From: Tabrizicola soli
Lineage (GTDB): Bacteria > Pseudomonadota > Alphaproteobacteria > Rhodobacterales > Rhodobacteraceae
Assembly (NCBI RefSeq): GCF_015999335.1
Contig: NZ_JAEACP010000001.1
Location: 310,001 to 374,000 of the forward strand
Length of the DNA stretch: 64,000 nt
Direction of reading: 5' to 3'
Shown here: one piece after another, positions 11,418 through 63,898 of the stretch
Position numbering within the stretch: position 1 is the stretch's first letter
How the letters are laid out: every line of letters starts with the position of its first letter
Notes under the pieces: model-generated
Databases searched by the model: none
Told to the model about the DNA's origin: nothing
What the model saw: the letters and a program-made list of their open reading frames with translations, nothing else
Position numbers and translations under genes: made by a program

Positions 11418-11648
11418 GCCGGCTGCAAAGATCCTTGACGAAATCCTAACGCAAAGGTTGAAATCGGCGGACGGGCCCCTAAATCTCGTGATGGTCTGCC
11501 GGGGCCAACGACTAGATGCTGAGGGCGCAAATTCAGCCATGCACCAGGCGCATGGCAGTCATTCCAAACCGGAAGCCCCCGAATCGCATACAAATCGTTA
11601 CAACCCCTCGGACGCGAGGAATTACAAGAGCAATAAAAAGGAAAGCCG

Positions 11649-11975: not shown

Positions 11976-12000
11976 TCAGGTCCGGCAAGGACCTAGACGA

Positions 12001-12023
12001 AACGCGCCCCCAGTGGGCGCGTT
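12001..12023. terminator. Terminator between convergent genes
   Basis: AACGCGCCC (12001-12009) and GGGCGCGTT (12015-12023) make a perfect 9-bp stem with a 5-nt loop, followed by GTCATTT. It lies between the end of the 108-aa gene and the end of the convergent acidic-protein gene. Confidence 0.75.
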
Positions 12024-12050
12024 GTCATTTCCGGGGTCGGTTTCCGGGGC

Positions 12051-12674: not shown

Positions 12675-12769
12675 ATCCGGCCTTCCGTCCAAGCCACGCG
12701 AACCCGCCGGATGAGCCTACTCTGGCAAGCCCATGTCCGGCAACAGTTTTCGCGCCGGACGGCCCCTGC

Positions 12770-14140
12770 TCAATTGCCGATCTTTTCCAGAATCCGGTCC
12801 AGAGCCTTGCCCTGCGCGCTGTGCGCGGGCGCACGCTCGACCGATTTGTAATAGGCTTCGGGATCGTAGGTCGGGATGCCGAGCTGCAGATGCTCGACGG
12901 TCAGCAGGCCCATGGTCGAGAGCACGCGGTAGACGCTGACGTAACGCTGCGCCTCGGCCTGGAGGCGGGCGTTGCGGGCATCCAGAAGCTCCTGCTCGGC
13001 GTCCAGCACGTCCAGCGTGGTCCGCGCGCCCAGTTGCGCCTCTTCGCGCACGCCGTCGAAGGCGGTTTGCGCGGCGCGGATCTGGCGGTCGGAAGCCTCG
13101 ATCGAGGCGTTGGAGACCAGAAGCCCGGCCCAGGCGACGCCGACCGATTGCAGCACGTTCACCGTGGTCTGCTGCAGGCCCGCCCGCGCCCGGTCATTGC
13201 CCGCGATCGCCTGGCGCAGCAGCGCCGCCAGCTTGCCGCCGGCATAGAGCGTCTGGTTCCACACCAGCCCGACCGAGGCGCTGTCCAGCCCGTCGTTGTC
13301 GGTCTCGAGGCTGGCCTGGGCGCCCAGCGTCGGCTTCATCCCGGCGCGGGCCAGATCGACCTGCAACCCGCCGATGGTCACGAGATGCTGCGCCTGGCGG
13401 ATCAGCGGATGGGACTTGCGCGCGACCGACTGCGCCTCCTCCAGCGACTTCGGCAGGGCCGGAGCCCTGGGCGGGGCCGCAAGGTTGCCGGGATAGGCGC
13501 CGGTCGCGGCCTTGTAGGATTCGCGCGCGACCATCAGGTCGCCCTCGGCCGCCGAAAGCGCCGAGCGCGAGGCCGCCAGCCGCGCCTCGGCGATGGCTAC
13601 GTCGGTGCGGGTGATCTCGCCCACGTCGAAACGGTCCTGGGCGGCGCGAAGCTCCTGGGTGATGAGCCGCAGGTTGCTTTGCCGCAGCGCCACGACATCC
13701 AGCGCCAGCCGCACATCGACATAGGCCTGGACGGCGGCAAGCAGCACCTCCTGCTCGACCTGGACCAGCGCCTGACGGGTGGCCAGCACGCTTTCGCGCG
13801 CGAGCTCGATCCCGAAATGGCGGCGGCCGAAATCCAGAAGCAGCAGGTCGGCCGACAGCGACAGCGAGGCCGAGGTGCCCTCGACCGTGGCCGGGACCGG
13901 CGAAGAGACATCTGCCCGCCGCCAGCCGGCGGTCGCGGTATAGGCGATCACCGGCCGCAACGACGAGACGGCGACCGCCACATCCTCATCCGCGGCGCGC
14001 AGCACCGCGCGGTTCTGGTCCAGGAGATTCGAGTTGCGATAGGCCGCGATCAGCGCATCCGTCAGCGTCTCGGCCCCTGCCCCGGCCGCCGACCCAAGCG
14101 CCGCCGCCGCCACCACCACCGCTCGAAGCCAGGACCGCAT
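12770..14140 (-). CDS. tolC: TolC-family outer membrane efflux protein
   Basis: This is the outer-membrane exit duct for tripartite efflux pumps and type I secretion. The 456-aa protein has a signal peptide (MRSWLRAVVVAAAALGSAAG, cut near AGA-ET). It shows the internal duplication of two long helical repeats typical of TolC, with ETLTDALIAAYRNSNLL at the mature start and LVWNQTLYAGG in the second half. The ATG at 14140 is chosen because it begins directly on the signal peptide with a purine-rich GGAAAGG site upstream. Pcm lies 83 bp upstream in the same direction. The RND and MacAB pumps in this window could use this duct. Confidence 0.9.
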   Translation of the reverse strand: MRSWLRAVVVAAAALGSAAGAGAETLTDALIAAYRNSNLLDQNRAVLRAADEDVAVAVSSLRPVIAYTATAGWRRADVSSPVPATVEGTSASLSLSADLLLLDFGRRHFGIELARESVLATRQALVQVEQEVLLAAVQAYVDVRLALDVVALRQSNLRLITQELRAAQDRFDVGEITRTDVAIAEARLAASRSALSAAEGDLMVARESYKAATGAYPGNLAAPPRAPALPKSLEEAQSVARKSHPLIRQAQHLVTIGGLQVDLARAGMKPTLGAQASLETDNDGLDSASVGLVWNQTLYAGGKLAALLRQAIAGNDRARAGLQQTTVNVLQSVGVAWAGLLVSNASIEASDRQIRAAQTAFDGVREEAQLGARTTLDVLDAEQELLDARNARLQAEAQRYVSVYRVLSTMGLLTVEHLQLGIPTYDPEAYYKSVERAPAHSAQGKALDRILEKIGN

Positions 14141-45363: not shown

Positions 45364-46416
45364 TCAGTCCTGCGGCGGCAGGACCCGAGCCAGAATGGGC
45401 GCCAGGACGATGACGACCAGGATCCGCGCCACATGATGCAGCGCGACGAAGGCCACATCGGCATGGATCGCCAGCGCGATCAGCCCCATCTCGGTCAGCC
45501 CGCCCGGTGCCAGCGCCAGCAGGGCCTGGTCGAGCCCCACTCCCGCCCAGGCACGCATCGCCAGCCCCGCGACCAGCGCGAGCGCGAGCGTCAGGAGCGT
45601 GGAGCCGAGGCTGAGGAGCCCGGCCTTCCACAGCATCACCGGCCGGATCCCGAGGAAGCGGCAACCGAGGATCGTGCCAAGCGCGACCTGGGCCGCGATG
45701 ATCAGGACCGTCGGCGGCGCCCCGGCGGTAAGGCCGGTCATATGCGCCAGGGCCGACAGGAGGAGCGGGCCAAGGAAACTGGGCGCGGGGAAGCGCGCCC
45801 AGGTGCCGAGGGCCGCCCCCAGCACCGCCGAGGCCATCAGGATCGCCGCGTCGATGATCCCGAGCGGCGGGCCGGAGGCGGAACTGGCCGCGGCCCCGAC
45901 GTCGTGGCCCAGGACCACGCGAAAGAGGAAGGCCATCAGCGCGATGGTGACGACGATGCGCAGCGAATGGGCCAGCACGATCGCCGCGACATTGGCGCCG
46001 CGCGCCTCGCCGAACTCGATCATCTCGGACAGGCCGCCGGGCATCCCGGCGAAATAGGCGGTGGTCCAGTCCTGCCGTCCGGCGAAGCGGTAGAAGGGCA
46101 CGACAACCGCGCCCACGGCCAGGAGATAGGCCAGCAGGATCGCCAGCGTCACCGCCGCCTCACCCGCCTGCCCCAGCACCTCGGGCGAGAAACGCGAGCC
46201 GAGCAGGACGCCGATCACCGCCACGATGGCGGGGCGCATCCGCGCCGGACCCGCAACCGGGAAACCGGCGACCGCGGCCACCATGGTCAGGAACAGGGGA
46301 CCCAGCATCCAGGGCAGCGGCAGCGAGAGCGCGTGGAAGGCGACGCCTCCCAGCGTACCGAGCGTAAGGCCGGCCGCCAGTCGGGCCAGGGGCGGAAGGG
46401 ATCGGTCCTGCATCAT
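45364..46416 (-). CDS. AbrB/AmoA-like (PF05145-type) membrane protein
   Basis: The 350-aa polytopic protein has about ten helices in two similar halves, each with a MPGGLSEM-type motif (YFAGMPGGLSEMIEFGEA and LALAPGGLTEMGLIALAI). This duplication marks the family historically named AbrB or ammonia-monooxygenase regulator; its transport or regulatory role is unproven. It is divergent from macA. Confidence 0.87.
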   Translation of the reverse strand: MMQDRSLPPLARLAAGLTLGTLGGVAFHALSLPLPWMLGPLFLTMVAAVAGFPVAGPARMRPAIVAVIGVLLGSRFSPEVLGQAGEAAVTLAILLAYLLAVGAVVVPFYRFAGRQDWTTAYFAGMPGGLSEMIEFGEARGANVAAIVLAHSLRIVVTIALMAFLFRVVLGHDVGAAASSASGPPLGIIDAAILMASAVLGAALGTWARFPAPSFLGPLLLSALAHMTGLTAGAPPTVLIIAAQVALGTILGCRFLGIRPVMLWKAGLLSLGSTLLTLALALVAGLAMRAWAGVGLDQALLALAPGGLTEMGLIALAIHADVAFVALHHVARILVVIVLAPILARVLPPQD

Positions 46417-46585
46417 GCTTGCCCGAGGTATGGCGCGGGCTCCGGGGCAATGTCCAGAGGCACCGGCGCGCGGCAGGATGCCGTCTTGAGCCGGGCCGCG
46501 CCGCTGCTATCTTCTGCCGTGGGTGATACCTGCCGACTGGCGGCGGGCTGGCCATGGCCCGGGCGGCAATCGGGAAGGTCTGCGG

Positions 46586-47824
46586 ATGAGCGAGCGGCAG
46601 CGGGAGATCGAGGCGGTGCTGGGCCTGGGGCGACCGCAGAGAGGCCGGATATGGTGGGCGCTGGCGGCGGTTCTGGCCCTGGGCGGGCTTGGCGCCTGGT
46701 ATCTGGCGCAGAGGAGCGCGGGCGTGGGCATCGCCTATGCCACGCAGGCCGTCGTCCGCGGCGATCTGGTGGTCACGGTCACCGCCACGGGGTCGGTCGA
46801 GCCGACGAACATGGTCGATATCTCGAGCGAGCTGTCGGGGACGCTGAAAGAGGTTCTGGTGGATTTCAACGACCGGGTCGAGACCGGGCAGGTCCTGGCG
46901 CGGCTGGACACGGCGAATCTCGAGGCGAAGGTGGCGGTGCAGCGCGCCAACCTGCGCGCGGCCGATGCGCGTGTCGCAAGGGCACAGGCGACGCTGAACG
47001 AGGTCGAGACGAATTTCGACACCTCGCGCCAGCTGGACGAACGCGGTGTCACCAGCCGGCAAAGCCTGGACACCGCCCGCGCGGCGCTGGACCGGGCGCG
47101 GGCCGATCTGGAGATCGCCGAGGCGGATGTGGCGCTGTCCAGCGCCAACCTGCGGCTGGCCGAGACCGAACTGGCCAAGGCCTGCATCTGCTCGCCCATC
47201 ACCGGCGTCGTGCTGGACCGGCAGGCGGATACGGGCCAGATTGTCGCGGCCTCGCTGTCGGCGCCGGTCCTGTTCACCGTGGCCGAGGATCTGACGCGGA
47301 TGGAACTGCAGGTCGCGGTGGACGAGGCCGATATCGGCAGGCTGGAGATCGGCGATGCGGCGACCTTCACGGTCGATGCCTATGACACCCGCACCTTCCC
47401 CGCCGAGATCGCCCGGATCCGCTATGCGCCGCAGACGGCCGAGGGCGTAGTGACCTATCTCGCCACGCTGGACGTGGACAATTCGCATCTCGCGCTGCGG
47501 CCCGGCATGACCGCAACCGCCGAAATCGTGGTGAGCAAGGTGGGCGATGCGCTGCTGGTGCCCAATGCGGCGCTGCGGTTCCGTCCGGCGGTGACGGCGG
47601 CCGAGGAGGAGGAGGGCGGCGGCAGCGGGCTTCTCGGGCTGATCATGCCGCGCCGCCCCAGCCTTCCCGATGCGCCGCGTGCGGCGGATGCGGTCTGGGT
47701 CCTGCGCGCGGGCCAGCCGGTCGAGGTGGCGATCGAGCCCGGCGACAGCGACGGCCAGCTGACCGAGATCCGCAGCGGCGGGCTAACCGAGGGCGATCTG
47801 GTGATCATCGGGCAGGACGGCTGA
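46586..47824 (+). CDS. macA: MacA-like periplasmic adaptor
   Basis: The 412-aa membrane fusion protein is anchored by one N-terminal helix (IWWALAAVLALGGLGAWYLA, residues about 20-40). It has lipoyl halves (TGSVEPTNMVDISSELSG, ICSPITGVVLDRQADTG), an alpha-hairpin, and a barrel domain with TYLATLDVDNSHLALRPGM. It links the MacB pump to TolC. The ATG at 46586 has GGAAGG upstream. The stop overlaps the ATPase gene by TGATG. Confidence 0.9.
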   Translation: MSERQREIEAVLGLGRPQRGRIWWALAAVLALGGLGAWYLAQRSAGVGIAYATQAVVRGDLVVTVTATGSVEPTNMVDISSELSGTLKEVLVDFNDRVETGQVLARLDTANLEAKVAVQRANLRAADARVARAQATLNEVETNFDTSRQLDERGVTSRQSLDTARAALDRARADLEIAEADVALSSANLRLAETELAKACICSPITGVVLDRQADTGQIVAASLSAPVLFTVAEDLTRMELQVAVDEADIGRLEIGDAATFTVDAYDTRTFPAEIARIRYAPQTAEGVVTYLATLDVDNSHLALRPGMTATAEIVVSKVGDALLVPNAALRFRPAVTAAEEEEGGGSGLLGLIMPRRPSLPDAPRAADAVWVLRAGQPVEVAIEPGDSDGQLTEIRSGGLTEGDLVIIGQDG

Positions 47825-48531
47825 TGGCCGGGGATCCGCCGCTGATCCGGCTGCGCGGCGTCACCCGCCTCTATGGTCAGGGCGCCGCCGAGGTGCGGGC
47901 GCTGGACGGGGTCGATCTGGACATCGCGCGGGGCGAGTTCGTCGCGATCATGGGGCCCAGCGGCTCGGGCAAGTCGACGGCGATGAACGTGATCGGCTGC
48001 CTGGACCGGCCGACCTCGGGGCAATACCTGTTCGAGGGGGTCGAGATCGCGGGGCTGGACCGCGACCAGCGCGCGCTTCTGCGGCGCAACTACCTGGGTT
48101 TCATCTTCCAGGGCTACAATCTGCTGCCGCGGACATCGGCCCTGGACAATGTGGAATTGCCATTGATCTACAAGGGGATGCCCCGCGCCGAACGGATCGC
48201 GCGGGCCCTGGAGGCGCTGGAGATGGTCGGGCTGAAGGGGCGCGAGCATCACGACCCCTCGCAGCTGTCCGGCGGGCAGCAGCAACGGGTGGCGATCGCA
48301 CGCGCGCTGGCGGGCGACCCGCGGGTGCTTCTGGCCGACGAGCCCACCGGGAACCTCGATACCCGCCGCTCGGTCGAGATCATGGACCTACTGGTCAGCC
48401 TGCGCCGCCAGCGCGAGTTGACCATCGTCATGGTCACGCATGAGGATGACATGGCCGCCTATGCCGACCGCATCATCTGGATGGTCGACGGCCGCATCGA
48501 CAGCGAGCGCCGCAACGGGAAGGTGGCCTGA
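47824..48531 (+). CDS. MacB-type ABC exporter ATPase
   Basis: The 235-aa ATPase of the MacB/LolD group has Walker [11 protein letters not shown]-loop [18 protein letters not shown], signature LSGGQQQR, Walker [13 protein letters not shown]. In MacB proper the ATPase and permease are fused; here they are separate genes 1 bp apart, as in many Gram-negative and Gram-positive relatives. It is coupled to macA by TGATG. Confidence 0.92.
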
Positions 48532-48532
48532 G

Positions 48533-49750
48533 ATGCTGTGGGAAACGGCCCGGCTGGCGCTCAGGGCGATCCTGCGCAATGCGCTTCGGTCCTTCCTGAC
48601 GGTGCTGGGCATCGTGATCGGCGTGGCCTCGGTGATCGCGATGGTCACCGTGGGCCAGGGCTCGCAGGCGCAGGTGACGGCCGATGTCGCAAAGCTCGGG
48701 ACGAACATCCTGATGCTGCGGCCGGGCGGGCGCGGGATGGCTCCCGGCCCCGGTGGCGGGGCCAGCGTGGCGCGGCCCTTCGACCTGCGCATGGTCGCGC
48801 GGCTGGAGCACGGGCTGGACGAGATCGAGACCGCCGCCCCCGTCTCGAACGGCACGGCGACGGTGGTGGCGGGGGGCGAGAACTACCGCACCCAGATCAC
48901 CGCGACCGATGCGCGCTATCTGGAGGCGGCGAACTGGCCGCTGGTGGCGGGCCGCAACTTCACCGAGGCCGAGGCACGCTCGGGCGCGGCAGCCTGCATC
49001 CTGGGCGAGACGGTGCGGCGCGAGATCTTCGGCGGCCTGGATCCGATCGGCCAGTCGCTGCGGCTGGAGGCGATGAGTTGCAAGGTGATCGGCCTGCTTG
49101 CCGCCAAGGGCGCCTCGTCCTTCGGCAGCGACCAGGACGACGTGGTGCTGATGCCGATCCGCACCTTCCAGCGCCGTATCGCGGGCAATGACGATGTGGG
49201 AACGGTCTATATCCGTGTCGCAGACGGGGTGGCGACCGAGGATGCGGCGGTGGCGATCACCTACCTCATGCGCGAGATCCGCCGCATCGGCCCCGAGGAA
49301 GAGGACGATTTCGACGTCATCGACATGAAGCAGCTGGCCTCGATGCTGACGCAGATCACCGGGGTGCTGAGCGGGCTTCTGGCGGCGGTGGCGGCGGTCA
49401 GCCTGCTGGTGGGCGGCATCGGCATCATGAACATCATGCTGGTCAGCGTCACCGAGCGCACCCGCGAGATCGGCATCCGCCTGGCGGTGGGGGCGCAGGC
49501 GCGGCAGGTGCTGATGCAGTTCCTGGTCGAGGCGATCGTGCTGTCGCTGATGGGCGGGGTCCTCGGGATCGTGCTGGGCCTCGGCCTTGCCGCCGTCGCG
49601 GCGCGGTTCATGGCGATCCCCTTCACGCCCGATCCGGCCGTGGTCCTGCTGGCCTTCGCCTTCTCGGCGCTGGTCGGCGTCATCTTCGGCTTCTTCCCCG
49701 CCCGCGCCGCCGCAAGGCTGGACCCGATCGAGGCGCTGCGCCACGAATGA
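48533..49750 (+). CDS. MacB-type ABC exporter permease
   Basis: The 405-aa permease has the MacB topology: helix 1 ([20 protein letters not shown]), a periplasmic MacB core domain (about 50-270), then three helices with [20 protein letters not shown] and the end [19 protein letters not shown], all hallmark motifs. It works as a mechanotransmission pump that pushes substrates from the periplasm through TolC. Substrate (macrolide, lipopeptide or toxin) is unknown. It follows the ATPase gene by one base. Confidence 0.93.
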
Positions 49751-49816
49751 CGGCGTTCCGAAAGTGACAGGCTGCCCTTCATCCGCTAGCCTTCCCGATA
49801 CCCGGGGAGGGGACGC

Positions 49817-50917
49817 ATGGCGACCGGATTCGTCTTTCACGAACTTTACCTTTGGCACGACACGCAGAACTGGGCGCTGATCTTCCCGCCGGGACTGACG
49901 ATCCAGCCCGGCGAACATGCCGAAAACCCCGAGACCAAGCGTCGTCTGAAGAACCTGATCGAGGTCTCGGGCCTGATCGACCACCTGACGCCGATCAGGC
50001 CGCGTCCGGCGACCGAGACCGAGATCCTGCGCTTTCACACCGCCACGCATCTGGAGAAGATCCGCAGCATGAGTGCCTCGGGCGGCGGCGATGCCAGCGA
50101 GCTGACCCCCTTCGGCACCGGCAGCTACGAGATCGCGCTGCTGGCGGCGGGCGGCACGATCGAGGCGATGGATGCGGTCCTGGCCGGCCGGGTGCATAAT
50201 GCCTATGCGCTGGTGCGCCCGCCGGGACATCATGCGACGCAGGACGTCGGGATGGGCTTTTGCCTTTTCGGCAACGTGGCCATCGCGATCATGCATGCCC
50301 GGTCGCAGCGTGGGCTGGGGCGCGTCGCCACGGTGGACTGGGACGTGCATCACGGCAACGGCACGCAGGCGGCCTTCTATGACACGCCCGAGGTGCTGAC
50401 GATCTCGCTGCACCAGGACAGCCTGTTCCCCGTCGGCTCGGGCCGCCTGGCCGAGCGCGGTGCGGGCCGGGGCGAGGGCTACAACCTGAACATCCCCCTG
50501 CCCCCGGGCTGCGGCGATGGCGCCTATCTCGAGGCGATGCGGCGTGTCGTCATCCCGGCGCTGGACCGCTACCGGCCCGAGGTGATCGTCGTTCCCTCGG
50601 GGTTCGATGCCTCGGGCGTCGATCCCCTGGGGCGGATGATGGTCTCGGCCGAGGGCTACCGCCAGATGACCCGGCTGCTGATGGAGGCAGCCGACCGGCT
50701 CTGCGGCGGGCGGCTGATGATGTCGCACGAGGGCGGCTATTCGGCGATGTATGCGCCCTACTGCGGGCTGGCGGTGCTGGAGGAGATGTCGGGCCACCGC
50801 ACGGGGGTGGAAGATCCCTGGGGGCCGCATATCGCGCATTGGGGCCAGCAGGACCTGCAACCGCACCAGAGCGCGGCAATCGACGCCGCCGCGGCGCTGC
50901 TGGAAGCCATCCGCTAG
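49817..50917 (+). CDS. Histone deacetylase/acetylpolyamine amidohydrolase superfamily protein (class II-like)
   Basis: The 366-aa zinc hydrolase has RPPGHHA (active-site His pair), VATVDWDVHHGNGTQ (Zn Asp and His), SLHQDSLFP, and VVPSGFDASGVDPLGRM (second Zn Asp). The late HEGGYSAMY is close to the class II pattern. Bacterial members deacetylate polyamines, amides or acetoin-related targets; the substrate is unknown. The left boundary of the tRNA-Arg island lies 33 bp after its stop. Confidence 0.9.
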   Translation: MATGFVFHELYLWHDTQNWALIFPPGLTIQPGEHAENPETKRRLKNLIEVSGLIDHLTPIRPRPATETEILRFHTATHLEKIRSMSASGGGDASELTPFGTGSYEIALLAAGGTIEAMDAVLAGRVHNAYALVRPPGHHATQDVGMGFCLFGNVAIAIMHARSQRGLGRVATVDWDVHHGNGTQAAFYDTPEVLTISLHQDSLFPVGSGRLAERGAGRGEGYNLNIPLPPGCGDGAYLEAMRRVVIPALDRYRPEVIVVPSGFDASGVDPLGRMMVSAEGYRQMTRLLMEAADRLCGGRLMMSHEGGYSAMYAPYCGLAVLEEMSGHRTGVEDPWGPHIAHWGQQDLQPHQSAAIDAAAALLEAIR

Positions 50918-50949
50918 GCACCGCCGCGCTGGTATCTTCAAGGGCTCGC

Positions 50950-50967
50950 TGGCGCACCAGAGAGGAT
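50950..50967 (+). repeat. Putative island attachment site, distal copy
   Basis: The 18 bases starting TGGCGCACC and ending AGGAT match the tRNA-Arg(CCG) 3' end at 52864-52881 in 16 of 18 positions and the same orientation. It marks the point where GC-rich chromosome changes to AT-richer DNA. It is the expected duplicate of an integrase core site. Confidence 0.65.
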
Positions 50968-51181
50968 GAAACTTGGCACCTCTATGTCATTGTAGATGCT
51001 TTATAATTTTGGTGGATACAGCCTCCTCCAAAGAGGAAAGGCGATCGGAGGTTGGGTCGATTTTCCAGAAGGGCTGTCTCGCCTAATCCACGAGCATTGT
51101 TCTCGTGCGCAAGGGCCCGGCGAACCGAACGCCGTCGAAGAATCCTGTTTACTGGATGAAAAAATCCAATATACTGGAGTG

Positions 51182-51766
51182 ATGGATTTAGATGCTCTCA
51201 TCGCAATGCGGGTGCGCGAACTACGAAAGGCTCGCGGTCATTCACTCGATACTCTAGCCGATCTAAGCGGGGTCAGCCGTTCGATGATCTCTCTCATCGA
51301 GCGCGGAGAGACGAGTCCGACCGCCGCTGTATTGAATAGGCTAGCGAACGCGCTTGGCGTGACTTTGGCCTCGCTCTTTGCCGAAGAAGCTGGAACCGCT
51401 CCGGTGCCGCTTTCACGTCTCGCGGATCAACAAGTGTGGAAAGACCCTGCTACCGGCTACGAGCGCCGACACGTTTCGCCGAGCGGCTACGCAACGCCCA
51501 TCGAGCTTGTCGAGGTCGCCTTTCCGGCTGGCGAGACCGTCACTTTCGAGACCATCATCCGCAACGTAGTGACTCATCAACAGGTGTGGGTACTCGAAGG
51601 CGAAATGATCGTGACCGTGGATGGTGACGCATCCCACCTGCGGGTCGGCGATTGTCTCGCCATGGTGCTCGGGCAGCGGATCACCTTCCACAACCCGACG
51701 AAAAAGTTAGCGCGCTATGCGGTCGTGCTGACCACAACCTCCAACACTTCAAGGAAACAAGGATGA
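51182..51766 (+). CDS. XRE-family regulator with C-terminal cupin domain
   Basis: The 194-aa protein has an HTH of the SinR/XRE type (VRELRKARGHSLDTLADLSG, VSRSMISLIERGETSPT). A small-molecule-binding cupin barrel follows (FETIIRNVVTHQQVWVLEGE, DGDASHLRVGDCLAM). This class usually controls a neighbouring amino-acid or amine metabolism or export gene. The ATG at 51182 has GGAG upstream; the frame is open to 50996 but that region has no domain. The stop overlaps the acetyltransferase start (ATGA). Lower GC and AT-ending codons mark it as acquired. Confidence 0.9.
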   Translation: MDLDALIAMRVRELRKARGHSLDTLADLSGVSRSMISLIERGETSPTAAVLNRLANALGVTLASLFAEEAGTAPVPLSRLADQQVWKDPATGYERRHVSPSGYATPIELVEVAFPAGETVTFETIIRNVVTHQQVWVLEGEMIVTVDGDASHLRVGDCLAMVLGQRITFHNPTKKLARYAVVLTTTSNTSRKQG

Positions 51767-52293
51767 GTGAGCCGATTATCGTTCAGTGCTCGTACGAGCG
51801 CCATGCCGCCGCGATCTTGGAAATCTTTAATGAGGCGATACAAACATCGACGGCGCTTTTCGATTACAGGCCCCGCGCTCCGGGGAGCATGGTCGGATGG
51901 TTTGACGCCAAGCGCGCAGGAAACTTCCCTGTCGTCGGCGTCGAAGATGCGCAAGGAACACTGCTCGCCTTCGGCAGCTATGGCACGTTCCGCGCGTGGC
52001 CGGCCTACAAGTATTCAGTCGAGCACTCCGTCTACGTCCACAAGGATCATCGTGGCAAAGGTCTCGGCAACGTCGTCATGCGCGAGATGATCGGCGCCGC
52101 TCGGGAGAACGACAAGCATGTGATGATCGGCGGCATCGAGGCGACAAATACCGGCAGCATCGTATTGCACGAGCGGCTTGGCTTTAAGCACACCGGCACG
52201 CTGCCGCAGGTTGGTTTCAAGTTCGGCCGTTGGCTTGATCTCGCTTTCTATCAACTCGTGCTGCAAACCCCTGCGCAGCCTGTAGACGGCTAA
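51763..52293 (+). CDS. GNAT N-acetyltransferase (phosphinothricin/MnaT-like)
   Basis: The 176-aa enzyme shows the PAT-type pattern AAILEIFNEAIQTSTALFDY, YKYSVEHSVYVHKDHRGKGL (acetyl-CoA P-loop R-G-K-G), IGGIEATNTGSIVLHERLGF and GFKFGRWLDLAFYQLVL. Relatives acetylate phosphinothricin, methionine sulfoximine or L-amino acids. It is translationally coupled to the regulator and 1 bp before the transporter, suggesting one detoxification unit. The substrate is not provable here. Confidence 0.9.
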   Translation: MSEPIIVQCSYERHAAAILEIFNEAIQTSTALFDYRPRAPGSMVGWFDAKRAGNFPVVGVEDAQGTLLAFGSYGTFRAWPAYKYSVEHSVYVHKDHRGKGLGNVVMREMIGAARENDKHVMIGGIEATNTGSIVLHERLGFKHTGTLPQVGFKFGRWLDLAFYQLVLQTPAQPVDG

Positions 52294-52294
52294 G

Positions 52295-52744
52295 ATGAGC
52301 GCGCCCCTAACCCTAGCCCTACTAACAGCGGCCGGTGCTGCACTCGTGATTCAAAATCTGCTGATGGTGCGGATAACGGAAGCTGCATCGACCGTTCTCA
52401 TTGCCCTCGTGCTGAATTCAAGTGTGGGATTGCTTTTGCTCGGAGGAACGCTGTTCGCGCGCCATGGCGTGGCCGGAATTGCAGAGATGATCGGGACGTT
52501 GCGGCCGTGGGCGATCTTGCCCGGGTTGCTCGGCTCGTTCTTCGTCTTTGCCGGCATCTTGGGCTATCAGCGGGTCGGCGCGGCTACAACGATCGCGGTT
52601 CTCGTCGCGAGCCAGCTTGTCGCGGGCATCGCGGCCGACGCCTTGAAATCCGATGCGGTTCAAACACGCCCCAGCCTTTTGACACTCGCAGGGGCAGTGC
52701 TGTTGATCCTGGGCGCTGTCATGGTGGCGCGAGAGCGCGCCTAA
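52295..52744 (+). CDS. DUF606/YdcZ-type small transporter
   Basis: The 149-aa protein has about five hydrophobic helices: ALLTAAGAALVIQNLLMVR, LIALVLNSSVGLLLLGG, AILPGLLGSFFVFAGILG, TTIAVLVASQLVAGIAADA, and LLTLAGAVLLILGAVMVA. This is the DMT-related DUF606 pattern of YdcZ-like proteins, which work as small dimeric exporters. It follows the GNAT gene by 1 bp, so it may export or exchange the substrate or product of that enzyme. Confidence 0.85.
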   Translation: MSAPLTLALLTAAGAALVIQNLLMVRITEAASTVLIALVLNSSVGLLLLGGTLFARHGVAGIAEMIGTLRPWAILPGLLGSFFVFAGILGYQRVGAATTIAVLVASQLVAGIAADALKSDAVQTRPSLLTLAGAVLLILGAVMVARERA

Positions 52745-52863
52745 CACGCGCGCTCGCGATGAGAGCGAACGCCAGCAGTTCAGACCACTCTCGAAGGCTC
52801 GGAGTCCGCGCAATTCGGAAATCGCCCCCTAGTGCCCGCCTTTGTTCTAGAATGGTAGAAATT

Positions 52864-52940
52864 TGGCGCACCCGACAGGATTCGAACCTGTGACCTCTGC
52901 CTTCGGAGGGCAGCACTCTATCCAGCTGAGCTACGGGTGC
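52864..52940 (-). tRNA. tRNA-Arg (anticodon CCG)
   Basis: The reverse complement folds as a 77-nt cloverleaf with encoded CCA: acceptor GCACCCG/CGGGTGC, anticodon stem CTGCC/GGCAG with loop CTCCGAA (anticodon CCG, reads CGG), T-arm ACAGG/CCTGT with TTCGAAT. Its 3' end is the integration site of the neighbouring island and remains intact. Confidence 0.97.
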
Positions 52941-53116
52941 CTGGACCTGTCCTTAGCCGAAGCCCGCGGGGGTTTCAACGCCAAAGGAAAGAACTTCCGC
53001 CCCGCAACCCGCGAAAATGCGGGGCTCTGCCCGGCCCTCGTGGCGCTGCCGACGCTTGACCAAATCCCCGGCGCGGGATGGACTGGGCGCATGTCCGCTT
53101 CCGCCAGGTTCCTGCC

Positions 53117-55288
53117 ATGATTTCTGCCCCCTCCGCCCCGCACACATCCCGTCTTGCGGGCCTCTGGGCCTCGCTCTCCTGCCTGGCTCTGCTGGCGGGC
53201 TGCGGTGGTGGCGAGGGGGAGGACCCGCTGGAGGAGTTCTACACGATCAGCGGCAATCCGGGGGGCTCGGGGATCTTCGGGGCGTATTTCATGCAGTCGA
53301 TCACCCAGGAATGGCGCGATGCGGCGGCGAGCTTCCGCGACAACAACCCGCGCTACAAGGTGCAGGACGGGACCTTCGCCATTGGCGGCAGGACGGTCTT
53401 CGCCAATCCGCTGCACTCCTCGCGGATGGACTATGCCCATGCCCTTGGCCTGACCGGCACGGGTGCGGTGATCGCGGTGGTGGACAATGGTTTCCTCCGC
53501 ACCCACGAGACCTTTGCCGGAAAGACGGTCACCCATACAGGGGATACAGCGGTCGACGACGGTTCGCAGGTGCCTTCCCATGGCACGACGGTCGCCTCGA
53601 TCGCGGCGGGAGAATCTTCGACCATGGTCGGCGTCGCACCGGGGGCGGATCTGGTCTTCAGCTCCTGGGATGTCCTTGATCTGGCCGCCGCCGCCGACGA
53701 GGCCCGCAGGCGGGGGGCGGTGGCGCAGAACAACTCATGGGGATTCGTGGACAGGCCGATCACGCAGGCCAGCCATGAGTCCATCTTCGGCATCCCGGCC
53801 TATGCCGCCTGGCTGGCGGCCCTGAAGCTTTATGCCGCGGACGGGGTCGTGGTCTTCGCGATCTCGAACGAGGAGGACGCCGCGACCGCCGGCCTGATGG
53901 AGGCGCTGCCCCTGCTCGAGCCCGATCTGGAAACGGCCTGGATCGCGGCGGGCAATGCGGTGCCGGTCTTTGACGACGACGGGGTCAGCGCGGTTGCCCT
54001 GCGCCTGTCGGCCGGCTGCCTCGAAGCCGCGCGCTGGTGCCTGATGGCGGATGGCAGCTGGTATGCGGCCATGGCGGGGTCGAACAGCGCCTATGGCTCG
54101 GCCACCGGATCGTCCTTCGCGGCGCCGCAGGTTTCTGGCGCGCTGGCGCTTCTGGCCGAGGCCTTCCCGCACCTTGCCCCGCACCAGTTGCGCGCGCGGC
54201 TGCTGGCGTCGGCGGACAACACGTTCACCGGCTTTACCGCGGCGGGAAGCATCGACCTGCTGGAGGGAGACGAGACCTTCCTGCACGCCTATTCGACCGA
54301 ATTCGGCCATGGGTTCCTGGACATAAGGGCGGCGCTGTTGCCGATCGGGACGCTGACCATGACCATGGCCGACGGCGGTGCGGTCGCGGTGACGGAACTG
54401 GGCTTCGCGACCGGCGGGGCGATGGGCGATGCGGTGGTGCGCGGGCTTGCGGGGGTGGACCTTGCCGCCGAGGACGCGCTGGGGGGCGGGTTCGACGTGG
54501 CGGCGAAGTCCTTTGCCACCGAAGCGGCGGTCGAGCCCCTGGCCGAGACGGTCGCGGCACGTGCGCTTGGCAAGGATTTCGCCCGCGCGCGGACCGCGCC
54601 GATCAGCCCGCTGGCCCGCAGCTTCGAGGCCTTTCCCGGCCGGACGCTGGAGCTGACCGGCCCCGATGGAGGAAGCGCAGTGGCGCTCATGCTGGGCGGG
54701 GGCGAGAGTTACGGCATCGCGCTGTCGCGGCGGGTGGCCGAGGGGACGTTGAACCTGGACCTGGGGCTGAAGCTTTCGCGTGACGATGGCAGTCTGATGG
54801 GTTTTGCCGATGCGACGGGCGGGGGCGCGGCGATGGCTGCGCTGACGGTCAGCCTGTCGCATGACCTTGGTTCCGGCAGCTTCTTCGCGCTGTCGGGCGA
54901 GATGGGCCTGGCCGACCTTACCACGCCGCGGGCGCTGTCCGGCGTCACGACCGCAAGCTTCGACAGCCTGAGCCTGGATGTCGGCACGCGCAATGTCCTG
55001 GCCCGTGGCGACCGGCTGGCGGTCGGCGTCTCGCTGCCCATGGCGGTCACCGCCGGGCAGGCCGAGATGGTGGTGCCGGTCGCACTGGGTCAGGGCCGGT
55101 CCGAGATGCGTAGTCTTGCCTTCGACCTTGCCCCGAGCGAGCGGCAGGTGGACCTCTCCGTCAGCTATCAGGCGTCGATGGGCGAGAACTCGGAGCTGCT
55201 GGTCGAACTGGTCCATGCGCAGAATTACGGCAACCGCGCCGGGATAACGGACAATGCGGCAGTTCTGGGGATGAGGTGGAGTTTCTGA
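53117..55288 (+). CDS. Lipidated S8 (subtilisin-like) serine protease with autotransporter-like barrel
   Basis: The 723-aa protein starts with a lipoprotein signal (LSCLALLAGCGGG; lipobox Cys about residue 34). An S8 protease domain follows with the full triad: Asp123 (VVDNGF), His155 (PSHGTTVAS) and Ser333 (GSSFAAPQ). The last about 250 residues are beta-rich with alternating hydrophobic residues and end in Phe (VLGMRWSF), as in outer-membrane autotransporter barrels. NalP of Neisseria is a known lipidated S8 autotransporter, so a surface protease is likely. The ATG at 53117 begins directly on the signal peptide. It stands alone. Confidence 0.82.
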   Translation: MISAPSAPHTSRLAGLWASLSCLALLAGCGGGEGEDPLEEFYTISGNPGGSGIFGAYFMQSITQEWRDAAASFRDNNPRYKVQDGTFAIGGRTVFANPLHSSRMDYAHALGLTGTGAVIAVVDNGFLRTHETFAGKTVTHTGDTAVDDGSQVPSHGTTVASIAAGESSTMVGVAPGADLVFSSWDVLDLAAAADEARRRGAVAQNNSWGFVDRPITQASHESIFGIPAYAAWLAALKLYAADGVVVFAISNEEDAATAGLMEALPLLEPDLETAWIAAGNAVPVFDDDGVSAVALRLSAGCLEAARWCLMADGSWYAAMAGSNSAYGSATGSSFAAPQVSGALALLAEAFPHLAPHQLRARLLASADNTFTGFTAAGSIDLLEGDETFLHAYSTEFGHGFLDIRAALLPIGTLTMTMADGGAVAVTELGFATGGAMGDAVVRGLAGVDLAAEDALGGGFDVAAKSFATEAAVEPLAETVAARALGKDFARARTAPISPLARSFEAFPGRTLELTGPDGGSAVALMLGGGESYGIALSRRVAEGTLNLDLGLKLSRDDGSLMGFADATGGGAAMAALTVSLSHDLGSGSFFALSGEMGLADLTTPRALSGVTTASFDSLSLDVGTRNVLARGDRLAVGVSLPMAVTAGQAEMVVPVALGQGRSEMRSLAFDLAPSERQVDLSVSYQASMGENSELLVELVHAQNYGNRAGITDNAAVLGMRWSF

Positions 55289-55292: not shown

Positions 55293-56513
55293 TCAGGCAA
55301 AAAGCTCGTGCGCAAGCTCCAGTGCCGAGACCAGGACGTCGACCTCCTCGACCGTGTTGTAAAGCCCGAAGGAGGCCCGGCACGAGGCGGTGATGCCGAG
55401 ATGCGTCATGAGCGGCATGGCGCAATGGGTGCCGGCGCGGACGGCGATGCCGCGCTTGTCCAGGATGGTGGAGATGTCGTGGGCATGGGCCGCGCCCTGC
55501 ATGGTGAAGGAGAAGATCGCCCCCTTCCCCGCCGAATTCCCCTGCACGTTCAGCCAGTTGAGGCCCTGAAGCCGGTCACGCGCATAGTCGCGAAGGCTGC
55601 GCTCATGCGCGGCGATATTGGCCATGCCGAGGCCCATGAGGTAATCCAGCGCCACGCCAAGGCCGATCTGCTGCACGATGCCGGGGGTCCCGGCCTCGAA
55701 CTTCATCGGCGGGTCGTTCCAGGTGACGGTGTCGCGGGTCACCTCGCGGATCATGTCCCCGCCGCCAAGGAAGGGGCGCATCTCGGCCTGGCGCTCGCGC
55801 GAGATCCAGATCGCACCCGAGCCGGAGGGGCCGTAAAGCTTGTGCCCGGTGATGGCGTAGAAATCGCAGCCGATGGCCTGCACGTCGACCGGCATGTGCA
55901 CCGAGGACTGGCTGCCGTCGACGAGGACGGGCACCCCCTTCTCACGCGCACCCCGGCAGATCGCGGCGACATCGACCACGGTGCCAAGGACGTTCGACAT
56001 CTGGGTCACGGCGACCAGCTTCGTCCGGGGGCCGATGGCGTCGATCACCGCCTGCGGATCGAGGTCGCCATTGCCGTCCACCTCGACCCATTTCAGGACC
56101 ACGCCCTGCCGCTCGCGCAGGAAGTGCCAGGGGACGATGTTGGCGTGATGCTCCATCACCGACAGCACAATCTCGTCACCCGGCTGCAGGCGCGGGGCGG
56201 CCCAGGCGTAGGAGACGAGGTTGATCCCCTCGGTCGTGCCGGTGGTGAAGACGATCTCCTCCTCGGACGCTGCATTCAGGAAGCGGGCGATGGTGCCGCG
56301 GGTGGATTCGTACTTCTCGGTCGCGAGGTTCGACAGGTAGTGCAGGCCGCGATGGACGTTGGCGTATTCCTCGGCATAGCCCCGCGTCACCGCGTCGATC
56401 ACCACTTGCGGCTTCTGCGCGCTGGCGCCGTTGTCCAGATAGACCAGCGGCTTGCCGTTCACCTGGCGCGACAGGATCGGGAAATCGGCGCGGATCTTGG
56501 CGAGATCATACAT
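55293..56513 (-). CDS. sufS: SUF cysteine desulfurase SufS
   Basis: This PLP enzyme removes sulfur from cysteine for Fe-S assembly. The 406-aa protein has YLDNGASAQKP at the start, TTGTTEGIN, the Schiff-base lysine in ITGHKLYGPSG, and the catalytic cysteine in RAGTHCAMP (Cys364). All are SufS features. SufS usually needs a sulfur acceptor (SufE/SufU); none is in this window. It is the last gene of the suf operon here, and its start overlaps the preceding YIP1 gene end by 8 bp. Confidence 0.95.
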   Translation of the reverse strand: MYDLAKIRADFPILSRQVNGKPLVYLDNGASAQKPQVVIDAVTRGYAEEYANVHRGLHYLSNLATEKYESTRGTIARFLNAASEEEIVFTTGTTEGINLVSYAWAAPRLQPGDEIVLSVMEHHANIVPWHFLRERQGVVLKWVEVDGNGDLDPQAVIDAIGPRTKLVAVTQMSNVLGTVVDVAAICRGAREKGVPVLVDGSQSSVHMPVDVQAIGCDFYAITGHKLYGPSGSGAIWISRERQAEMRPFLGGGDMIREVTRDTVTWNDPPMKFEAGTPGIVQQIGLGVALDYLMGLGMANIAAHERSLRDYARDRLQGLNWLNVQGNSAGKGAIFSFTMQGAAHAHDISTILDKRGIAVRAGTHCAMPLMTHLGITASCRASFGLYNTVEEVDVLVSALELAHELFA

Positions 56514-59663: not shown

Positions 59664-61325
59664 TCAGCGCGGGTCCTGGAACCAGCCGATGACCTGGGTG
59701 AGCATTTCGGGCGGGATCGGTCCCGGCGTGACGGTGAAGCGCGCCATGCGGCCGACCACCTCATCCTTGCGGGCCAGTTTCTCGACCGCGTGATAGTATT
59801 TTCGGTCCACGTAATCGTCAAAAAGCACCGTGGTCGGCCGCCGCGCGCGCAGGCGCACCGCCGCCAGGCAGGCAGCACGGAACCGGCCGTCGATCAGCAC
59901 GAGGTCGGGCTCGCCCAGATCGGGGCGGTCCCAGACCGAAAGCGCGTAGCGCGGAAAGCGGGCGTGCTGCGTGGCGGTGCGGGGATAACCCCACTCCTTG
60001 GTCGGGCCGATGTCGACATGGTGGACGCGGGCCCTGTCCGATATTCCGGCCAGCGCCTCGGCCAGCCTTCCGGCCCAGTCGGGATCGCTTTCCACGCTGA
60101 CGACCTGCGCCCCGCCCCGCGCGGCCAGCATGGTGGACCCGCCGCTGCCATATTCAAGCACGTTGCGCGCCCCGGCATAGGCCTTGGTCACGAAGGCGGC
60201 CTCGAGGTCCGGGAAGGTCAACTCGAACGCAGGCGCAGCCACCTCGGCACTCGCGGGTTCCGCCTGCGCCGGCATTTCGGCGCTCTCCCTCGGCAGCGCC
60301 GCCAGCAGCTTCTGAACCAGGCCGTCCGAGGTCGCCTTCGCCCGGGCCACGGCGGGACGAGCAAGCAGACGCTCGATCTCGAGGGTCACCGCGTCCTGCC
60401 AATACAGGATCGAGCGGTCCTCCTCCTCATTGCGATCATGCTCGCGGAAGAATACGCCATTGTGCCGGTCATTCGCCGGGCCAACCGCGTCAGCCTTGTA
60501 GCCGCGCCCGCGCTGCTTCTTCAGGGCAAAGAACTCGGGGGTGCGCACGACGTAATGGTTGATCTGCGCCAGGGCCCAGCCGGCTTCCCTGGGCGTCACG
60601 GCGTTTGTCCGGCCAAGGGGGGCGCCCCGGCTCCAAAGCAGTTGCCGGCGCCCCGTGCTGCCCGGCTTTCCCGAGCCGGTCAGCACCGCCGCCAGATCCA
60701 GCCCCACCTCGGCGTTGACGAGAGGACGGTGAATTCCAACGCTGGCGAAACCCGCAATCGAGGCTGTCTTCCGAAACAGCGACTTCACCTCGAGATTGCC
60801 TTTGAACGGCAGGCCGGATGCCCGTTCGAAGGCAGGGCTCAGGAACCGACCGGGAAAGGTCGCATGCCCGTTGCTGCCGAAGATGCGCCAGTTGATCAGA
60901 AAGCACTGGGCCGCGCCCATGGCCTCGATCAACGCGTCAAGATTGCGGTCCCCGACGTGGACATTCAGGAATTCGTCCGCATCCAGCCACATGTACCAGT
61001 CACCATCGCGGTATCCGATCTCATGCGTAAAAGCGGCCGATGCGACAGTCTGAGGCGATTGTCCCGCTTCGACGGAAGTCCGCAGATGCCGGATCTCGTC
61101 CGCCTCGGCCAGTGCAGCCAGCAATTCCTCCATACCGTCATTGGACGGATTGGAGCAGATCACGATCTCGTCGAAACCGATGGCCTTGTGATAGGCTACC
61201 CATTCCAGAAGGAACGGCGCCTCGTTCTTCATCGCCGAGAACAGCACCTTCCTTGTCGCGGCAACCGGATGGCCGACGACCTCGGCCAACCCCGCAAGGG
61301 CCGCAGAGTTTGCCGGCGCGTCCAT
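59664..61325 (-). CDS. Glycosyltransferase (GT2-like)/SAM methyltransferase-like fusion inside the suf operon
   Basis: The 553-aa protein has an N-terminal glycosyltransferase domain (about 20-300): KVLFSAMKNEAPFLLEWVAY, HKAIGFDEIVICSNPSNDG and the metal-binding DWYMWLDADEFLNV. A linker rich in Ala/Pro/Glu follows. A C-terminal class I methyltransferase-like domain starts at about 375 (NVLEYGSGGSTMLAA, VVSVESDPDW, DLVLIDGRFRAACLAAV). The N-terminal type resembles DUF4422/GT92-like glycosyltransferases. No role in Fe-S assembly is known. The ATG at 61325 overlaps the sufB stop (TGATG), and sufC follows, so it is co-expressed. Confidence 0.8.
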   Translation of the reverse strand: MDAPANSAALAGLAEVVGHPVAATRKVLFSAMKNEAPFLLEWVAYHKAIGFDEIVICSNPSNDGMEELLAALAEADEIRHLRTSVEAGQSPQTVASAAFTHEIGYRDGDWYMWLDADEFLNVHVGDRNLDALIEAMGAAQCFLINWRIFGSNGHATFPGRFLSPAFERASGLPFKGNLEVKSLFRKTASIAGFASVGIHRPLVNAEVGLDLAAVLTGSGKPGSTGRRQLLWSRGAPLGRTNAVTPREAGWALAQINHYVVRTPEFFALKKQRGRGYKADAVGPANDRHNGVFFREHDRNEEEDRSILYWQDAVTLEIERLLARPAVARAKATSDGLVQKLLAALPRESAEMPAQAEPASAEVAAPAFELTFPDLEAAFVTKAYAGARNVLEYGSGGSTMLAARGGAQVVSVESDPDWAGRLAEALAGISDRARVHHVDIGPTKEWGYPRTATQHARFPRYALSVWDRPDLGEPDLVLIDGRFRAACLAAVRLRARRPTTVLFDDYVDRKYYHAVEKLARKDEVVGRMARFTVTPGPIPPEMLTQVIGWFQDPR

Positions 61326-62842
61326 CACCCGACCGAGCCTTCCAGGCTGATCGCGACCAGGCTTTGCGCTTCCATGGCGAATTCCATCGGCAGGGCCTGC
61401 AGCACCTCCTTGCAGAAGCCATTCACCACCAGAGCGACGGCCTCCTCCTCATCCATGCCACGGCTGCGACAGTAGAAGAGCTGGTCGTCGTCCACCTTGG
61501 AGGTGGTCGCTTCGTGTTCGACCCGTGAGGAATTGTTGCGCACTTCGATATAGGGCACGGTATGCGCCCCGCATTTGTCGCCAATCAGAAGACTGTCGCA
61601 CTGGGTATAGTTGCGGCTGTCCTTGGCTTTCGGATGCATCGACACGAGGCCCCGATAGGTGTTCTGCGCCCGGCCGGCGCTGATCCCCTTCGACACGATC
61701 CGCGATTTCGTCCGCTTGCCGAGGTGGACCATCTTGGTCCCGGTATCGGCCTGCTGGGCGTTGTTGGCGATGGCGATCGAGTAGAACTCGCCCTGCGCGT
61801 CGTCGCCGCGCAGGATGCAGGAAGGATATTTCCAGGTGATCGCCGAGCCCGTTTCGACCTGCGTCCACATCACCTTGGCCCGGTCGCCCCGGCAATCCGC
61901 GCGCTTGGTGACGAAGTTGTAGATCCCGCCGACCCCGTTCTCGTCGCCCGGATACCAGTTCTGCACCGTGGAATATTTCACCTCGGCGTCCTTCAGGATC
62001 ACGATCTCGACCACAGCGGCGTGCAACTGGTGGATGTCGCGCTTGGGCGCGGTGCAGCCTTCCAGGTAGCTGACGTAAGAACCTTCGTCGGCGATGATCA
62101 GCGTACGCTCGAACTGGCCGGTGTTCTCGGCGTTGATGCGGAAATAGGTCGACAACTCCATCGGGCAGCGGGTGCCCTTGGGGATGTAGACGAAGGAGCC
62201 GTCCGAGAACACCGCCGAGTTCAACGTGGCGAAGAAGTTGTCCGACTGCGGGACGACGCTGCCCAGATACTGCTTGACCAGATCGGGATAGTCGCGGATC
62301 GCCTCCGAGATCGGGCAGAAGATCACCCCGGCCTTGGCAAGTTCCGCCTTGAAGGTGGTCCCCACGGAAACCGAATCGAAGACCGCGTCCACCGCCACCT
62401 TGCGCGGCTCCGCCTCACCTTCGACTCCGGCCAGAAGCATCTGTTCCTTCAGCGGAATCCCGAGTTTCGCATAGGTGGCCAGAAGCTTCGGATCGACCTC
62501 GTCCAGGCTCTTCGGCTTCGAGGCCATGCTCTTCGGCTTGGCGTAGTAATACTGGTCCTGATAGTCGATCTCGGGATAGTTCAGCATCGCCCAGCGGGGC
62601 TCTTCCATCTGCACCCAGCGCCGATAGGCGGCGAGACGCCAGTCCAGCATCCATTCCGGCTCGCCGTTCTTCTGGCTGATCAGGCGGACGATGTCCTCGC
62701 TGATGCCTTTCGGCGCATATTCGGTCTCGATCTCGGTTTCCCAGCCGTACTTGTACTTGCCGGCCATCGCCTGCACGGTCTCGATCGTCTCGCGGTCGAC
62801 GCCCTCGCGGATATCCTGGCTCGTCTCGAGAATGGCGGTCAT
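61325..62842 (-). CDS. sufB: Fe-S cluster assembly protein SufB
   Basis: SufB is the main scaffold subunit of SufBCD. The 505-aa protein shows [58 protein letters not shown], and the late [20 protein letters not shown] with the conserved Cys, all SufB features. The ATG at 62842 begins 12 bp after the preceding cysteine desulfurase gene. Length is standard. Confidence 0.97.
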
Positions 62843-62854
62843 CGGCGTTTCCTT

Positions 62855-63898
62855 TCAGACGGCCCGGGTTCGGGCCTTGGCATAGGCGGCGGTCCAGGCT
62901 TTTGCAAACCGCTGCACGTCATCTTTCGTCACCCCGGGCCCGATCGAGACCCGGATCGCCTGCGCGGCAAGGGCCTCGTCGAAGCCCATCGCCGTCAGCA
63001 CGCGGCTGGCCCGCACCTTGCCGCTGGAACAGGCCGAGCCCGCCGAGACGGCGAACCCCGCAAGGTCCATCGCCATGACCTGAGTCTCGCCCTTCCAGCC
63101 GGGAGCGATCAGGCACAGCGTGTTCGGCAGTCTAGGCGAACCATTTCCGACCGAAATAGTCTCTTTTGTCGCAGCAGACAACTCCGATTCTAGAATATTT
63201 CTAATCTGGGCGACGCCCTCCCAGATCCCGGCCGCCAGATCGCGCTGCGCGGCCTCGGCGGCGGCGGCGAAACCGGCGATGCCGATCAGGTTCTCGGTCC
63301 CGGCCCGGCGGCCCATCTCCTGCCCGCCGCCCTTGAGTTGCGCGGGAACCTCGATCCCCTGCCGCACCACCAGCGCGCCGATGCCCTTCGGCCCGCCCAG
63401 CTTGTGCGCCGAGATCAGCCCCATGTCGCAGCCCAGCCAGTTGAAGGCGAAGGGCACCTTGCCGAAGGCCTGCGTCAGGTCGCTGACCGCCAGCCCCTGC
63501 GGCAGGTCCTGCAACACCCCGGTCTCGGAGTTCGCCAGTTGCAGCGCGCTGCGCCCCGGATCGGAGACCGTCACCCCGCCCTGCCCGTCCACCGGCAACC
63601 CGGTCGAACACCAGGCCGCGACCGCATCATGTTCCACGGCCGCACAGGCCAGACCCCGCCCCGCGCAGGCCAGGGCCGCCGCCTCGGTCGCGCCCGAGGT
63701 AAAGACCACATCCGCCCCCTCGGCCCCCAGCGCCGCCTCGATCTTCGCGCGGCTGCGCTCCATCAGCGCCTTCGCCGCCCGCCCCTCGGCATGGACCGAG
63801 GACGGGTTGCCCACCACCTCCATCGCCGCGATCATCGCCGCCCTGGCCTCGGGCCGCAAAGGCGTGGTCGCGTTCCAGTCGAGATAGAGCCGGGTCAT
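62855..63898 (-). CDS. Cysteine desulfurase (IscS/NifS type)
   Basis: The 347-aa PLP enzyme has RLYLDWNATTPLRPEARAAM at the start, TSGATEAAAL, the Schiff-base lysine in ISAHKLGGPKGIGALV, and the catalytic Cys290 in SAGSACSSGKV. It is a second desulfurase besides SufS, first in the visible suf cluster, as in many Rhodobacterales. The ATG at 63898 has AGAGGAA upstream; that segment belongs to a dispersed repeat. A patch at 63131-63210 has 44% GC against a much richer background and encodes a non-conserved surface part. Confidence 0.93.
   Translation of the reverse strand: MTRLYLDWNATTPLRPEARAAMIAAMEVVGNPSSVHAEGRAAKALMERSRAKIEAALGAEGADVVFTSGATEAAALACAGRGLACAAVEHDAVAAWCSTGLPVDGQGGVTVSDPGRSALQLANSETGVLQDLPQGLAVSDLTQAFGKVPFAFNWLGCDMGLISAHKLGGPKGIGALVVRQGIEVPAQLKGGGQEMGRRAGTENLIGIAGFAAAAEAAQRDLAAGIWEGVAQIRNILESELSAATKETISVGNGSPRLPNTLCLIAPGWKGETQVMAMDLAGFAVSAGSACSSGKVRASRVLTAMGFDEALAAQAIRVSIGPGVTKDDVQRFAKAWTAAYAKARTRAV

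Follow-up and report, generated by a model that had tools for sequence, protein, structure and literature searches.

A foreign 1.9-kb islet at tRNA-Arg(CCG) of Tabrizicola soli, best read as the worn-down remnant of a tRNA-targeted island

In the window, a 64,000-nucleotide stretch of the Tabrizicola soli genome (contig NZ_JAEACP010000001.1, positions 310,001 to 374,000), a 1.9-kb low-GC segment lies between an intact tRNA-Arg(CCG) gene and a displaced, imperfect copy of the 3' end of that gene. That the segment is an islet of foreign DNA and the tRNA a genuine landing site is well supported. The segment is best read as what erosion has left of an ordinary tRNA-targeted island, a known kind of structure (genomic islet, decayed island) that requires no new element type. 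The islet is probably the surviving cargo of an element that entered by tRNA-directed recombination and then eroded. In this history, an element would have integrated at the 3' end of tRNA-Arg(CCG) by means of a tyrosine recombinase, whose substrates would be the tRNA gene and an attP with the tRNA 3' end. After integration, the tRNA would still be whole, and a copy of its 3' end would lie at the opposite end of the insert (50950-50983). The integrase would have been lost afterwards, the distal att copy would have degenerated, and the segment would have become fixed.

The intact tRNA-Arg(CCG), the presumed integration target, was located by a tRNA search at 52864-52940 on the minus strand, and a mismatch scan placed an 18-bp att-like copy of its 3' end at 50950-50967, also on the minus strand. 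The copy is in direct orientation relative to the tRNA 3' end (52864-52881) and identical to it at 16 of 18 positions, with two mismatches. In a gapped alignment, the likeness continues through the T arm to 50983, up to a preceding AGAGGT, and the extended copy (50950-50983, minus strand) corresponds to the last 35 nt of the tRNA, comprising the variable region, T arm, acceptor stem, and CCA. The segment therefore has the almost perfect 16–20 bp flanking repeats that mark islets at tRNA 3' ends (16/18 here); the exact att repeats of an intact tRNA-targeted integrative element are absent, in contrast to two islands in other genomes of the genus (G013 and G031). Several sequence types of tRNA-Arg(CCG), with paired changes in the acceptor and T stems, occur in the genus (L064-L093).

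The positions and orientation of the tRNA and the copy had been given correctly in the preliminary description, and the repeat is above chance. At up to three mismatches, the window contains three matches to the 18-bp pattern, one of which is the tRNA itself, versus 0.14 expected. The whole genome (4,683,966 bases, 57 contigs) contains 13 such matches, compared with two for the reversed pattern used as a control, and only the tRNA itself and the copy at 50950 remain at up to two mismatches. Dinucleotide shuffles of the 6.46-kb region reached the score of the gapped copy in 0/400 and 1/400 cases under two scoring schemes, with top shuffle scores of 29 versus 30 for the copy in one scheme and 18 versus 18 in the other, and none of 300 mononucleotide shuffles yielded a copy with two or fewer mismatches on the copy's strand. 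The window's runner-up tRNA-end likeness, which is on the opposite strand at about 32 kb, scored 16 versus 18. In the downstream stretches of 29 relatives, the best tRNA-end copy scored 10–15 in 27 and 40 (exact) in two, compared with 18 for the window copy. At Rfam gathering scores, no RNA gene besides the tRNA was found in 46400-53200. The remnant reading is supported by this repeat, which exceeds chance and is unique genome-wide at up to two mismatches, and is weakened by its degeneracy (16/18 and, further on, gapped), whereas the copies in G013 and G031 are exact.

The composition of the segment agrees with the low GC content reported for it earlier. The GC content of 50968-52863 is 58.0%, versus 68.3% for the whole window, and is below that of every non-overlapping stretch of the same length in the window (minimum 61.0%). 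With the repeats left out of account, the likeliest two-boundary GC segment within 48–56 kb was 50930-52999, which begins 20 bp from the repeat on the left and ends 59 bp past the tRNA gene on the right. The GC3 values of the three cargo genes are 0.64–0.71, versus 0.84–0.91 for five neighboring genes. On either side of these genes are a 198-bp leader (50984-51181), used in the spacer comparison below, and a 119-bp stretch reaching the tRNA 3' end (52745-52863), both without a recognized gene. The left GC boundary, located without the repeats, and the low GC3 of the cargo argue for the remnant reading, whereas the right GC edge, lying past the tRNA, argues against it. A further lower-GC stretch of about 62% was seen at 61001-63000 of the window.

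The three cargo genes share one direction (plus strand). The first encodes an XRE-cupin transcription regulator of 194 aa (51182-51766), identified by a profile match; its reading frame is open from 50996, and homologues and a conserved upstream block set the start at 51182. The second, which overlaps the regulator gene by ATGA, encodes a GNAT N-acetyltransferase of the phosphinothricin / methionine sulfoximine acetyltransferase kind (51763-52293), as judged from profile and structure homology, and the third encodes a DMT_YdcZ membrane protein, a putative exporter (52295-52744, profile match). The best solved relative of the GNAT protein was 2jlm, a putative phosphinothricin N-acetyltransferase (E 1.7e-66), which we take to be ACIAD1637, followed by 4mbu, 3dr6 (YncA, E 2.3e-41), and 2bl1 (PA4866, E 8.3e-41), and homology to solved members places the protein in this kind. 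Because its scores are under the NCBIfam equivalog cut-offs for ArsN1 and PPT acetyltransferase (105.6 vs 210, 94.9 vs 170, and 82.5 vs 300), no specific substrate was assigned. The ydcZ-mnaT pair is presumably present in E. coli; no DNA-level match to the segment was found in E. coli, and a Klebsiella record has GNAT and DMT annotations under a single 66% match. ArsN1 acetylates arsinothricin and phosphinothricin according to a passage of PMC6465285, a paper that also cites an article whose title gives methionine sulfoximine as a substrate of PA4866.

Judging from homology, the cargo function would be of a detoxification type. The XRE-cupin protein would keep the operon repressed at the palindrome TCCANTATANTGGA and release it on sensing a toxic amino-acid analogue; the GNAT protein would acetylate the amino group of the analogue, and the analogue or its acetylated form may leave the cell through the YdcZ protein. 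Defense was rejected as the cargo function: the 19 PADLOC hits were confined to the regulator, in its N-terminal helix-turn-helix region, and the other two proteins had none.

Aligned upstream regions revealed a conserved promoter/operator-like block at 51153-51178 (plus strand), which ends in the palindrome (51165-51178). A common block lies directly before the start codon in the 12 aligned regions, one from the window and 11 from the 17 loci where the regulator gene is adjacent (six Burkholderia loci, in which the gap is wider, were left out). Its majority consensus is TGGAATAAAAATCCANTATANTGGA, and the invariant columns are TCC, TA, T, and GA. The only exact occurrence of the palindrome in this genome is the one at 51165-51178; two further places match it with one mismatch. 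The DNA likeness to Crenobacter spans 51141 to 52293. Because the upstream block is common to homologous loci, the cargo and its control site seem to have moved jointly, and the regulator may act as a repressor at 51153-51178.

Among 32 genus genomes, the whole 1.9-kb DNA was found only in that of T. soli, where it matches once. The other 31 yielded short matches in five (E 8e-5 to 1e-3) and none in 26, with nine candidates scored per genome and some of the genomes incomplete. Within 394 family genomes, T. soli included, four others matched over 100–246 bases (E limit 1e-10, two candidates scored per genome). The closest GNAT proteins among the matches listed were those of Crenobacter oryzisoli (80%), Burkholderia (76%), and Nitrosospira (76%), the named loci being the best 80 of at least 586. 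In a GNAT tree of 104 rows, the window protein is inside a 31-row group (98/98, with the bootstrap not yet settled), in which 18 of the 30 other rows are named Betaproteobacteria, the class being assigned from names by general knowledge. The group also contains Geobacteraceae, a Desulfovibrio, a Chitinophaga, and unplaced MAG rows; 23 rows of relatives, some on long branches, sit outside it, after six of 29 such rows were dropped (<140 aa).

Among the best 80 of at least 586 GNAT loci, the regulator is adjacent to the GNAT gene in 17, and all three genes are present in the same order in two, L108 and L119. The regulator, GNAT, and YdcZ identities are 69, 80, and 64%, respectively, for L108 (Crenobacter oryzisoli). 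Two IMG/VR stretches carry the GNAT gene (65 and 69%, close relatives only). In four of the same best 80 of at least 586 loci (L112, L145, L178, and L184), a GNAT relative is within 300 bp of a tRNA or tmRNA gene; L112 and L145 had no displaced copy above background, and such proximity was rejected as a habit of the GNAT gene. These results give good support to a foreign origin of the segment, a discrete stretch of less than 10 kb not found in relatives. The foreign ancestry, as shown by the few same-genus and family DNA matches, the GNAT tree grouping, and the gene order in L108 and L119, is in line with the remnant reading. It also means that the operon crossed proteobacterial classes along with its operator-like block.

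The tRNA itself is a real landing site for mobile DNA in the genus. The search for related elements at tRNA-Arg(CCG), suggested in the preliminary description, recovered exact-repeat islands in two genus genomes as well as viral contigs. In G013, a 9.2-kb island with an exact repeat (L208, about 4707-13966) carries TRAP-type transporter genes (DctM, DctP), and its far end encodes a 447-aa protein with Pfam-confirmed phage-integrase and arm-binding domains. In G031 (L209-L210), the tRNA and the AbrB-family gene are separated by a 35-kb island that bears an exact copy; one of its ORFs (179 aa) resembled an integrase fragment by eye but has no Pfam match. The repeats of both islands were identical at all 40 of the 40 nt tested. 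In addition, a single contig of the genome G400 bears the 26-nt tRNA end twice, both times exactly, at a distance of 44.7 kb.

The 26-nt tRNA end is contained in 64 IMG/VR stretches (65 places), where exactness over the 26 nt is the search condition and no evidence in itself. Outward of the 26 nt, the identity reaches at least 43 nt at 24 of the 65 places and 28–33 nt at the other 41. Whole tRNAs are resembled at 21 of the 65 places (at least 69/77), and 13 of the 24 long blocks lie in non-tRNA sequence. Ten of the stretches, on nine contigs, encode a relative of the G013 integrase (37–43%) beside the tRNA end (L263, L267, L270, L273, L274, L296, L300, L301, L307, and L309). The distance from the start of the integrase homology to the CCA end is 208–228 nt in these ten stretches and G013 (208 nt in G013), and in the window 232 nt separate the regulator ATG from the CCA end of the copy, a suggestive closeness to the integrase spacing. 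By eye, several viral spacers showed repeated GGAAGC- or GGTAAAC-like motifs, possible arm sites. These results indicate that tRNA-Arg(CCG) is a landing site of the genus, used by a recognizable integrase lineage common to an island and viral contigs. Its use by exact-repeat islands and by viral contigs with integrases supports the remnant reading, and a whole tRNA adjoining a foreign segment, from which an actual insertion had been argued earlier, is found here at such a site.

As stated previously, none of the three cargo genes is an integrase (profile searches), and the segment thus lacks the internal integrase of an intact tRNA-targeted integrative element. No integrase remnant was found at the segment ends against 2738 ORFs of islands and viral stretches (best blastx E 0.08 and 0.17), and a hit of the whole segment (E 5.6e-8) is in the regulator gene. 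The left spacer showed no similarity above 100 shuffles each to the 11 int-att spacers of tRNA-Arg(CCG) elements; it does not resemble an att-int spacer of the G013-integrase type, and the 11 spacers differ widely among themselves. The ends without an integrase remnant and the dissimilar left spacer weaken the remnant reading.

The locus was compared in 29 of 31 relatives, G005 and G009 being omitted since no whole tRNA was found in them. The relatives are other species, and their stretches are shorter than 6 kb in five and 7 to 36 kb in the others. The AbrB-family gene, at 45364-46416 in the window, starts 58–209 bp from the tRNA in 11 of the 29, is 1.4–1.9 kb off in two (G022 and G024) and 35 kb off in one, and is outside the fetched stretch in 15. 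None of the MacA, MacB permease, HDAC, regulator, GNAT, and DMT genes was detected in the fetched stretches of the 29 (tblastn, E 1e-8). The 11 relatives without the genes of the entire 46.4–52.9 kb represent a wider empty site, and the window therefore differs by 6.4 kb, not by 1.9 kb alone; the neighboring exporter and HDAC genes are thus accessory too. The latter (46523-50917, plus strand) encode an HlyD-type / ABC / MacB-type exporter and a histone-deacetylase-family enzyme and are GC-normal. At other loci, DNA relatives of the exporter genes (68–71%) are present in 10 genus genomes, and those of the HDAC gene in G021 (87%) and G017 (81%); these two were rejected as an empty-site control because the HDAC gene there is away from the tRNA. 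On the other side of the tRNA, an autotransporter-like subtilase (53078-55288) is variable, and in some relatives an aminotransferase class-V gene (55293-56513 in the window) adjoins the tRNA in its place.

The exact empty site that had been predicted, 50949 joined to 52864, was not found among the 29 relatives of other species; those with a simple locus lack the genes of 46.4–52.9 kb, and the variable zone is wider. That the immediate empty site was not seen in relatives weakens the remnant reading. None of the 29 showed what had been named earlier as telling against an insertion, either the same genes at the locus or homologues of normal GC content there.

In a different history, illegitimate or homologous recombination would have brought the operon into an insertion-tolerant region, with the 16/18 repeat being either coincidental or the scar of an older, unrelated integration; this history is unlikely but deserves serious weight. 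It would account for the degenerate repeat and for the missing integrase remnant and spacer similarity, and small differences without a repeat do occur here, since in G022 and G024 the tRNA and the AbrB-family gene are 1.4–1.9 kb apart and the tRNA-end scores of 11 and 13 are not above background. However, the repeat is unique genome-wide at its similarity, is only 20 bp from an independently found GC break, and has a score that the shuffles almost never reach.

A single composite insertion comprising the exporter genes, HDAC, and the operon (46.4–52.9 kb, 6.4 kb), with the 50950 copy as an internal accretion scar, is quite improbable. The AbrB-family gene close to the tRNA in 11 of 29 relatives and the detection of the 6.4-kb genes in none of the 29 are compatible with such an insertion, whereas the exporter and HDAC genes are host-like in GC and GC3 and have same-genus homologues elsewhere. 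Moreover, a second tRNA-end copy beside the AbrB-family gene, a sign of tandem insertion, was sought and not found (best score 8).

Present mobility was considered as well. A search of this genome at E 1e-20 recovered nothing related to the G013 integrase. Its integrase-domain loci number 11 (nine over the cut-off); one has a tRNA-Thr, and no tRNA-Arg was found within about 1.5 kb of any of the 11. No short exact-repeat segment was present at the tRNA in the 29 genus relatives, and among 394 family genomes, none of the 83 with an exact tRNA end had a second one nearby. Because the distal copy is degenerate, excision from this site today appears unlikely. There is very little probability that the segment is a minimal, MITE-like tRNA element, a self-regulated detoxification operon without a mobility gene whose ends were once recognized by a phage or island tRNA-Arg(CCG) integrase; if true, bare operons can be moved to tRNA sites. 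Least probable of all is a minimal integrase-less element still moved in trans by such an integrase, as the preliminary description had allowed: the att-like ends, the self-contained regulated cargo, and the related integrases beside the same tRNA end in viral contigs would suit it, but the repeat is degenerate compared with those of G013 and G031, the left spacer is unlike the 11 others, the segment DNA matches once in the genome, and the searches for an integrase and for exact-repeat segments were negative.

Overall, the earlier interpretation is supported for the foreign origin, the tRNA site, and the repeat, and erosion to the cargo is the best-fitting reading; movement in trans is not supported, and the exact empty site was not seen in the 29 relatives. 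We infer arrival by the tRNA-integration route with later loss of the integrase. As the remnant of an ordinary island, the islet is at the small end of the size range for tRNA-associated acquisitions, and searches keyed to integrases would miss such segments.

Small marine elements of the tycheposon type have their own recombinase and replication genes. A profile search found neither kind among the three cargo genes. Tycheposons are named in a passage of PMC11389934. The Crenobacter oryzisoli operon (L108) has the three genes in the same order and the same upstream block, but no tRNA or tmRNA was found in its 12.5-kb locus. The G013 island shares the genus and the tRNA end with the segment, with an integrase start at 208 nt and a regulator start at 232 nt from the CCA, respectively, but has an exact repeat, an integrase, and other cargo (TRAP-type transporter). 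Cis-mobilizable elements (CIMEs) are described in a passage of PMC5704250 as having att-like ends and no integration or transfer genes. The segment, whose three genes are cargo and whose ends are att-like, is CIME-like in plan, but has no trace of a conjugative or mobilizable ancestor, and its distal att copy is degenerate. Genomic islets, as described in PMC2704930, are smaller than 10 kb, with deviant GC, at a tRNA 3' end, and with perfect or almost perfect repeats of 16–20 bp. Although it is just 1.9 kb long and holds one operon, with the mobility gene gone, the segment shares with genomic islets and decayed tRNA-associated islands the size class, the deviant GC, the position at a tRNA 3' end, and the repeats.
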